Shown here piece after piece: positions 1 to 2,498 of a stretch of DNA of 64,000 bases. Below the pieces are notes generated by a model that ran no database searches, was not told where the DNA came from, and was given only the letters and a program-made list of their open reading frames with translations. The DNA comes from Bartonella sp. ML69XJBT (GTDB lineage: Bacteria; Pseudomonadota; Alphaproteobacteria; Rhizobiales; Rhizobiaceae), in the NCBI RefSeq assembly GCF_028618515.1, contig NZ_JAQITB010000007.1, forward strand, positions 1 through 64,000. Reading direction: 5' to 3'. The translations under genes were made by a program, and so were the position numbers. Each line of letters starts with the position of its first letter. The first letter of the stretch is position 1.

Positions 1-169
1 GATAATATTTTTTATTTAAAATCTTAAAAGATATTTTGAAATATTTTTCATTCTATGAATAGTAGTAAATTTAGCATTATCTATTATAATGGATACAATA
101 TATTAAATTTAATTAAATTATTTTTAAAGTAAATTAAAACAATATTTAAATTTTATCTCAAAAAATATG

Positions 170-175
170 TATAAT
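170..175 (+). promoter_or_regulatory. possible -10 box of lexA
   Basis: A perfect TATAAT lies 55 bases before the lexA start codon, in a very AT-rich 230-base leader. No convincing -35 hexamer at the right distance was found. In such AT-rich DNA the match may be chance. No alphaproteobacterial SOS half-site (GTTC or GAAC) occurs anywhere in bases 1-230. Confidence 0.3.
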
Positions 176-230
176 ATTTGCAAATATATTTATTTTTTCT
201 TATTTTGGGTGCTTATGATTGGAATATTGA

Positions 231-944
231 ATGCTAACATGTAAACAATATGAACTACTGTTGTTCATTCATAATCATATGAAAGAAACTGGCATTCCTC
301 CCTCCTTTGATGAAATGAAAATTGCCTTGGAGCTTTCTTCAAAGTCTGGCATTCATAAACTTATGATAGCTTTAGAACAACGAGGTTTTATACGTCGTTT
401 GCCAAATCGAGCCCGCGCAGTTGAGGTGATACGACTTCCCGATAAAATAACATTTAATCTTTCTTTAGCGCGTAAACTTTCTCCCACTATGATAGAGAAA
501 AATAAAAGAAAAATATCAAAAAACTTTACTGATTTTAGTAACTTCGAGGCAGAAGAAAAAAAGAATGTTACTATTCCCATTATGGGCCGCATTTCTGCAA
601 GTATACCTGTCTTTGCTTTATTACAACAAATAGATACGCTTTCTTTACCACAAGATATGATTAACTCAGGTGAGCACTATGCTTTAGAAGTCAGAGATGA
701 TTCTATGATTGAGGCTGGTATTCTTGATAAAGATACTATAATTGTTAAATGCCAAAGTACAGCAACATCAGGTGAAATTGTTGTGGCATTCATCGATAAA
801 GAAGAAGCAACTTTAAAACGTTATCGACGTAAAGGAGCCTTTATTGAGCTAGAATCAGCAAATCCTCACTATGAAACACGCATATATGGATCTGAGCGTG
901 TGCAGATACAAGGTAAACTTATCGGACTTATTCGGAAATATTAA
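231..944 (+). CDS. lexA: LexA repressor (SOS regulator, S24 family)
   Basis: Transcriptional repressor of DNA-damage genes that inactivates itself by RecA-stimulated cleavage. The 237-residue protein has the N-terminal winged helix (about residues 1-65, with the SGIHKL recognition helix and RRLPNRARA) typical of alphaproteobacterial LexA, a variable linker, and a C-terminal S24 peptidase fold. The catalytic pair is Ser158 (in DDSM) and Lys196 (in EATLKRY). The scissile bond, normally Ala-Gly, reads Ala123-Ser124 here, and the residue before DSM is Asp instead of the usual Gly. The linker around residues 70-112 is divergent and lysine-rich. Identity is secure; whether cleavage is as efficient as usual is open. 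Confidence 0.95.
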
Positions 945-1184: not shown

Positions 1185-2498
1185 ATGGCAGCACCTCGTA
1201 TTAGCTTTGTTTCCCTCGGATGTCCAAAAGCATTAGTAGATTCTGAGCGAATTATTACCAGACTCCGGTCTGAAGGTTATGAAATTTCACGGAAGCATCA
1301 AGGAGCCGATGTCGTTATTGTAAATACCTGTGGGTTTCTTGATTCTGCTCGAAATGAATCATTAGCCAATATTGATGAAGCTCTCAAAGAAAATGGAAAA
1401 GTTATTGTAACGGGGTGTCTTGGTGCTGATCCTGATGTTATTCGTCAAGCACATCCTCATGTATTAGCCATTACAGGGCCACAAGCCTATGAAAGTGTTA
1501 TAGAAGCTGTTCATACAGCAATTCCCCCAGTTCATGATCCCTTTATTGATTTAGTTCCCCCGCAAGGTATTCGCTTAACACCTCGCCACTATGCTTACTT
1601 AAAAATTTCTGAAGGATGTTCTAATCGATGTAGTTTTTGTATCATCCCTACTCTGCGCGGTAATCTTACTTCACGCCCCATCAATGAAGTTCTTCGTGAA
1701 GCCGAAAAACTTGTACAGGCAGGTGTAAAAGAGCTCTTGGTTATCTCTCAAGATACCAGTGCTTATGGCATTGATCTTAAATATCTCGAAAGTCCTTGGA
1801 AAGATCGCATCGTAAAAACCAAATTTTTTGATCTTTGTCGCGAATTGGGTGATATGGGAATTTGGATACGCATGCACTATGTCTATCCTTATCCTCATGT
1901 GGATGAAGTTATTGAGCTTATGGCTGCAAAAAAAATTCTTCCGTATTTAGATATTCCTTTTCAACATGCATCACAAACTGTTTTACGTAATATGAAACGC
2001 CCTGCTGTTATGGAAAAAACAAATCGTAGAATTGAAAACTGGAGAAAAATTTGTCCAGATCTCACCTTACGATCAACATTTATTGTTGGTTTTCCAGGCG
2101 AAACAAATGAAGATTTTAATATACTCCTCGAATGGCTGGAAGAAGTAAAAATTGAACGTGCTGGATGCTTTAAATATGAAGAAGTAAAAGGCGCTGTCGC
2201 AAATGATTTGGGATTAGAAAATATTTCTGAAGAAGTGAAAGAAAACCGCTGGCATCGCTTTATGGCAAAACAAAAACAAATTTCTACCCATCTTTTAAAG
2301 AAAAAAATCGGAAAAAGACTTCAAATTCTCATTGATGAAAGTCAAGGAAAAATTGCTAAAGGTCGTAGCCAATATGATGCTCCAGAAATAGATGGTGTTG
2401 TACATATATCATCACGACGTCCATTACGTGTCGGTGAATTTGTCACTGTCAAAATCGAAAAGTCAGATGCTTACGATCTCTATGGTATTGCAGTTTAA
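1185..2498 (+). CDS. rimO: Ribosomal protein S12 methylthiotransferase RimO
   Basis: Radical SAM enzyme that adds a methylthio group to a conserved aspartate of ribosomal protein S12. All parts are visible in 437 residues: an N-terminal UPF0004 domain with the three cysteines of the auxiliary iron-sulfur cluster (Cys13, Cys49, Cys78), a radical SAM core with CxxxCxxC at 145-152, and a C-terminal TRAM domain (about 370-437). The start [15 protein letters not shown] is diagnostic for RimO rather than MiaB. It stands alone, about 240 bases after lexA, and converges on ttcA. Full length, no defects seen. Confidence 0.96.

Follow-up and report, generated by a model that had tools for sequence, protein, structure and literature searches.

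In mammal-type Bartonella ('eubartonella'), LexA appears to have been retained as what is probably still a DNA-binding repressor, cut off from the SOS response and serving, at least in part, the run-off replication locus (ROR), with self-cleavage relaxed in the clade that contains Bartonella sp. ML69XJBT. We hold this reading, drawn from sequence comparisons, with modest confidence, somewhat above an even chance. It is supported because the SOS boxes are lost, LexA is under purifying selection, a LexA-type box in the ROR is conserved, and no exact copy of that box is found where lexA is absent. The Ala-Ser scissile bond noted in the preliminary description of this DNA is a real finding and the visible tip of what is likely a rewiring.

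LexA and its scissile bond across the genus

The window analysed here is the whole stretch of 64,000 nucleotides that carries lexA (Table 1). The LexA protein scores 164.1 bits against TIGR00498 (curated cut-off 110.95), as a LexA orthologue does. It matches both PF01726 (winged helix-turn-helix, residues 2-63) and PF00717 (S24 peptidase), and it is the sole match of its kind in its own genome (E <= 10). Translation and alignments bear out the residues that had been read from the DNA alone: Ser158 and Lys196, which form the Ser-Lys catalytic dyad, are present; the scissile pair is Ala123-Ser124 (the numbering was right) and not the Ala-Gly bond of a canonical self-cleaving SOS LexA; and Asp156, not Gly, precedes the catalytic DSM. 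Asp156 stands opposite Gly in the three alignments shown against solved LexA chains. The Ala-Gly bond is treated as a LexA signature in passages of PMC8565304 and PMC13148647. The likeness to lexA3 (G85D) that had been drawn is weak, since Ser is small and uncharged.

Table 1. Features of lexA, its surroundings and the ROR box in Bartonella sp. ML69XJBT (positions refer to the window unless a locus is named)
Feature	Position	Strand	Basis or remark
lexA coding sequence, 237 aa, ATG start	231..944	+	ORF and profile matches
lexA 5' codons, DNA-binding domain (PF01726 residues 2-63)	231..428	+	pairwise dN/dS 0.070, 39 intact lineage-4 genes
Scissile pair Ala123-Ser124, codons GCA AGT	597..602	+	ORF translation, alignments
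Asp156 codon	696..698	+	Gly in 14/14 outgroup Bartonella; Asp in 39/39 intact lineage-4 LexA
Catalytic Ser158 codon	702..704	+	motif Asp156-Asp157-Ser158-Met159
Catalytic Lys196 codon	816..818	+	ORF translation, lineage-4 comparison
rimO, lexA neighbour, synteny marker	1185..2498	+	also broken or without a match in several relatives
lexA upstream region	1..230	+	contig begins at base 1, so 230 bases known
LexA-type box GTTCTCTATTTGTTC in ROR	G000:C57:19662-19676 (L087:1501-1515, L310:11663-11677), outside the window		intergenic, ML69XJBT
Small ORF, 46 codons here	L310:11716-11856		starts 38 bases past box end; no family match

The genus was sampled with 71 Bartonella genomes, 14 of bee/tamiae type (the outgroup) and 57 of mammal type (the eubartonella). 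On a quick tree built on the recA locus, with SH-aLRT alone as support, each group lies wholly on one side of a branch whose support is 100; two long outgroup branches were flagged with warnings, as was the base composition of part of the outgroup. RecA is present in 71/71 genomes. lexA is intact in 60, broken in three (G011, G031, G039) and without a match in eight; within the eubartonella this amounts to 46/57 intact, 3/57 broken and 8/57 unmatched. Gene status (intact, broken or absent) requires seven changes on the tree and lexA absence four. The neighbouring rimO is split, stop-filled or below threshold in several Bartonella, and neither lexA nor a close match to rimO is found in G002, G007, G008 and G047.

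All 14 outgroup proteins have Ala-Gly and Gly-Asp-Ser-Met. The 46 intact eubartonella proteins display six scissile pairs (Ala-Ser 29, Ala-Gly 9, Thr-Gly 4, Ala-Ala 2, Ala-Asn 1, Ser-Gly 1), and with Ala-Ser in 29/46 this bond is a trait of the lineage and not of a single protein, which answers the check that the preliminary description had proposed. Taken alone, its effect on cleavage is uncertain. Residue 156 is Asp in 40 of the 46 and Gly in six. We use 'lineage 4' for the 42-genome clade containing ML69XJBT, in which lexA is intact in 39/42; Asp156 is found in every LexA of this clade, broken copies counted too. Because Asp156 accompanies 36 of the 37 proteins that are not Ala-Gly and only four of the nine that are, the change from Gly156 to Asp most likely preceded the dipeptide changes. 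On the recA-locus tree, with intact genes only, residue 156 needs two changes and the dipeptide ten. Across the order, a degenerate DNA pattern encoding MGRIAA followed by a small residue has matches, whether in lexA or elsewhere, in 258/297 genomes; ML69XJBT and G015 are among the 39 with none. Among the matches listed, every genome is represented by at least one of Gly type, and the 11 of non-Gly type are extras in such genomes.

Selection was measured as pairwise NG86 dN/dS, computed with our own code and averaged over pairs rather than fitted in a branch model, for lineage 4 (39 genes), the early eubartonella (7) and the outgroup (14). In this order, dN/dS is 0.070, 0.056 and 0.011 for the DNA-binding domain, 0.176, 0.121 and 0.021 for the C-terminal domain, 0.147, 0.010 and 0.017 for the cleavage-site region (114-131), and 0.037, 0.054 and 0.016 for recA, the outgroup values coming with a dS near saturation but agreeing with four close outgroup pairs (0 or 1 nonsynonymous change, C-terminal domain). 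Whole lexA stands at 0.161 in lineage 4, and the 46 intact eubartonella genes at about 0.15-0.16 over the full length and 0.06-0.07 within the DNA-binding domain. LexA of the eubartonella is thus under purifying selection yet relaxed in both domains, and of the three groups only lineage 4 shows a relaxed cleavage region. The DNA-binding domain has relaxed (0.011 to 0.070) by a factor like that of the C-terminal domain (0.021 to 0.176), recA less so (0.016 to 0.037), and this counts against the rewiring.

Selection also bears on the best-surviving alternative, in which Ala-Ser and Asp156 are neutral and LexA still self-cleaves usefully, freeing the ROR (and perhaps other genes) upon DNA damage. 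The residues found at the bond in the eubartonella are all small (P1 Ala/Thr/Ser; P1' Ser/Gly/Ala/Asn), and related signal peptidases tolerate many P1' residues. Moreover, intact lineage-4 proteins keep Ser158 in 39/39 cases and Lys196 in 38/39, which fits continued cleavage and has to be counted against the rewiring. By itself, however, the kept dyad is weak evidence because lineage 4 shows no variation at 49 of the 125 C-terminal positions in any case. Relaxation of the cleavage-site region in that lineage only also argues against neutrality, as does the one exception at Lys196: in G033 (locus L035) Arg replaces the catalytic Lys, beside an Ala-Gly bond. By E. coli rules this replacement should impair cleavage, and the G033 protein probably represents a natural, impaired self-cleaving domain. 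A neutral bond is therefore possible, but we rate it as rather unlikely.

SOS boxes at repair genes and elsewhere

We sought the alphaproteobacterial SOS box, GTTC-N7-GTTC, as an exact match unless stated. An exact box lies 67-71 bases before the lexA start in 14/14 outgroup genomes and occurs in only one (G048) of 49 eubartonella upstream regions, two of which are shorter than 300 bases (including the 230-base stretch of ML69XJBT). In ML69XJBT, bases 1..230 before lexA hold no such box even at one mismatch. The upstream alignment displays a stepwise decay of the lexA box, with half-sites remaining in G006 and G041. At recA, the exact box is found in 12/12 outgroup genomes with enough upstream DNA (G057 and G062 were excluded, as their contigs end too near) and in 0/57 eubartonella, G066 having a one-mismatch match. 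The uvrA/ssb intergenic box follows suit, with 4/4 outgroup genomes against 0/22 eubartonella in a sample of 26/71 genomes. Visual inspection of the alignments upstream of lexA and recA showed no altered but coherent LexA motif.

ML69XJBT therefore lacks the boxes at lexA and recA that go with a canonical SOS LexA. For lexA, recA and uvrA/ssb, nothing in this genome, or in almost all of the clade members examined, points to an SOS regulon. The suggestion that this LexA might be a slow or differently triggered SOS switch survives in part: a different use of LexA is likely, and its SOS part is unsupported since the boxes at these loci are gone. The literature searched yielded no relatives with proven SOS induction.

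Over the whole ML69XJBT genome, 28 exact boxes stand against 76 matches to a reversed-control pattern, so there is no bulk enrichment. Most of the 28 are inside ORFs. The few inspected among those outside ORFs or in doubtful small ORFs comprise one near phage-tail-like ORFs, one before a HigA-like ORF, one at the YbgC-like/ruvB locus and the one in the ROR, the gene names being our own reading of the ORFs. The YbgC-like case (L100, G000:C83:17570-17584) is an intergenic exact box 92 bases before an ORF adjoining ruvB. In the early-branching eubartonella G006, an exact box (L328, G006:C1:1431237-1431251) lies 51 bases before a RuvC-like ORF and may possibly be the last repair target of LexA in that genome. 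Since boxes occur near ruvC (G006) and ruvB (ML69XJBT), the ROR need not be the sole target, and LexA probably has others, in early branches at least. Within the window, a box at 2898-2912 on the minus strand was rejected: it is inside a coding gene, and with a chance mean of 1.16 it is not above expectation. G001 and G006 each have a similar box some 2 kb away from lexA, with coding conservation as the probable cause.

The conserved box of the run-off replication locus

By position and gene content, the locus of the conserved box is the published ROR. The box region is phage-derived and is found by DNA search in 57/57 eubartonella; in the 14 outgroup genomes the same search gave only a weak 58-base match in G058, outside the box part. 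The ROR genes of ML69XJBT encode a YqaJ-type exonuclease, a small protein (weak DUF5063 match), a repressor with helix-turn-helix and repressor family matches and no peptidase domain, a DUF1376 primosomal protein and a primase/helicase. In G006 the counterpart of the small DUF5063-like gene occupies 1396315-1396704, exactly the coordinates given by Guy et al. 2013 to BAnh111090 of the B. australis ROR in a passage of PMC3610622. According to passages of PMC6899734, the ROR drives amplification of the DNA that the Bartonella gene transfer agent packages, and transfer is lost when the ROR origin or some ROR genes are disrupted.

The exact ROR box is present in 45 of the 46 genomes with intact lexA, in 3/3 with broken lexA and in none of the eight lexA-less ones. 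Across the 42 genomes of lineage 4, 14 of its 15 bases are invariant, compared with 0/40 on its 5' side and 10/35 between the box and the start codon; no other 15-base window of the aligned ROR region (385 bases in G001, small ORF included) is equally conserved. In G012, G029, G038 and G041 the flank can no longer be aligned by BLAST and the box is retained. Five genomes (G017, G020, G025, G028 and G055) carry three overlapping ROR boxes, in tandem with 11-base spacing.

Past the box lies a small ORF whose 3' half is antisense to the ROR repressor gene, with the replication genes next on the same strand. The small-ORF frame is open in 57/57 eubartonella (44-49 codons, with a start codon in 56), and the repressor frame is open in 57/57 as well. 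Because the lexA-less genomes are included in both counts, neither ORF explains which genomes keep the box.

Several observations count against the rewiring. G015 has an intact lexA and no exact ROR box, the three broken-lexA genomes keep theirs, and in G048 the exact box is displaced by 21 bases from the common position, which holds a one-mismatch match. One-mismatch matches are kept in the ROR region of 6/8 lexA-less genomes, though not always in one position, and boxes remain at ruvC (G006) and near ruvB. A promoter scan found no sigma-70-like promoter at the ROR box, and there is the absence of genome-wide enrichment. Lastly, lexA absence amounts to only four changes on the tree, too few for a formal test; an independent-pairs comparison of lexA and box, over starred branches only, gave two pairs, one concordant and one without difference. 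A promoter with a palindrome, read by eye at the opposite end of this ROR intergenic stretch, was set aside, as neither the promoter scan nor the repeat finder lists it.

The same exceptions feed a second alternative, in which the ROR box serves as operator for some other protein, e.g. the helix-turn-helix repressor encoded next to it, and its link with lexA is a coincidence arising from few lineages. The four changes on the tree, the box in three broken-lexA genomes and its lack in one intact-lexA genome all agree with this. Yet the box sequence is exactly the alphaproteobacterial LexA motif described in passages of PMC8565304, and the repressor frame stays open in all 57 genomes, including the eight lexA-less ones without the exact box. 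In addition, in five of those eight (G002, G008, G010, G037 and G043) BLAST aligns about 105-130 bases at the far end of the intergenic region and not the box part, whereas four lexA-bearing genomes share this gap and keep the box. We regard another operator as doubtful. The idea that eubartonella LexA is a dying passenger, jobless and heading for loss, draws on the 8/57 unmatched and 3/57 broken genes, the lost SOS boxes and the decay of the neighbouring rimO, but is quite improbable and already disfavoured given that 46/57 genes are intact with the low dN/dS reported above, lowest in the DNA-binding domain, and that the ROR box is clearly constrained in lineage 4.

Proposed rewiring and its relation to known systems

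In the rewiring that we favour, LexA would bind the ROR box and repress transcription of the small ORF, and perhaps also that of the replication genes beyond it (the DUF1376 protein and the primase/helicase), thereby coupling the ROR to a host signal. For the early eubartonella with Ala-Gly and Gly156, this signal could still be DNA damage. As the regulon shrinks, selection for rapid RecA-triggered self-cleavage would relax; in lineage 4, Gly156 would have changed to Asp once, after which the scissile pair would have drifted (to Ala-Ser in ML69XJBT). Given the altered bond and Asp156, weak or absent cleavage is the more likely state in lineage 4, and release of the ROR might then depend on the level of LexA or on another signal more than on DNA damage. 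Substitutions near the bond can move the rate either way, since in E. coli LexA, according to passages of PMC4980697, the change G80A makes cleavage about five times slower and E86P about ten times faster. The fullest version, in which a damage-blind LexA has been captured by a domesticated phage origin, its repair regulon lost, self-cleavage inefficient in lineage 4 and transfer gated by LexA level or growth state, is one that we put forward tentatively, as less than an even prospect.

Compared with alphaproteobacterial LexA of the GTTC-N7-GTTC type, the Bartonella protein shares the profile match, the DNA-binding domain, the Ser-Lys dyad, the position of the cleavage region and the box sequence; it differs in that Ala-Gly and Gly156 are replaced and ML69XJBT has no exact box at lexA, recA or uvrA/ssb. 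A likeness in layout comes from phages. Passages of PMC3121763 describe Salmonella prophages whose small antirepressors, directed at non-cleaved repressors, are under LexA control. These modules (Gifsy, 186 Tum and N15 AntC in the same passages) share with the ROR a LexA box before a small ORF, a phage-derived element and a small peptidase-less repressor; indeed, at the ROR a LexA box precedes a small gene beside a repressor without an S24 domain. The likeness is one of layout; the ROR differs in that its small ORF overlaps the repressor gene in antisense and LexA itself is altered.

Other systems resemble single aspects of the rewiring. Passages of PMC9638019 and PMC6473078 tie LexA to an alphaproteobacterial gene transfer agent in Rhodobacter capsulatus and Dinoroseobacter shibae, the latter with predicted sites at lexA, recA and the GTA cluster; in Bartonella, by contrast, the box is in a phage-derived replication locus and the tested SOS boxes are gone. 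In the GIL01 gp7-LexA system (PMC4551915), LexA likewise acts as a phage repressor with damped self-cleavage; there a phage protein does the damping, whereas in Bartonella the LexA sequence has changed and damping would follow from it. Reduced intracellular bacteria that lose or replace LexA, e.g. Francisella with FddR (passages of PMC13148647), share the dismantling of the SOS network in host-restricted bacteria. Francisella replaces LexA, while Bartonella keeps the original, apparently with another main target.

LexA control of the ROR is not reported in the literature searched, and the word LexA does not occur in PMC6899734, PMC3610622 or PMC2697382. As far as we are aware, it is new to find the loss of SOS boxes combined with the retention of LexA and a single, sharply conserved box in the ROR. 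The control of the Bartonella gene transfer agent and of run-off replication has been left aside before: a passage of the review PMC6899734 describes the mechanism of the ppGpp link as 'yet elusive', and a passage of an earlier paper (PMC2697382) defers the question of control to future work. The conserved LexA box in the ROR supplies a concrete candidate regulator for both. If the reading is true, a domesticated phage element would have taken over a master stress repressor as the repressor's own regulon dissolved, and a single genus would still display the steps: an intact network, half-decayed boxes, an altered bond, a broken gene and a missing gene.
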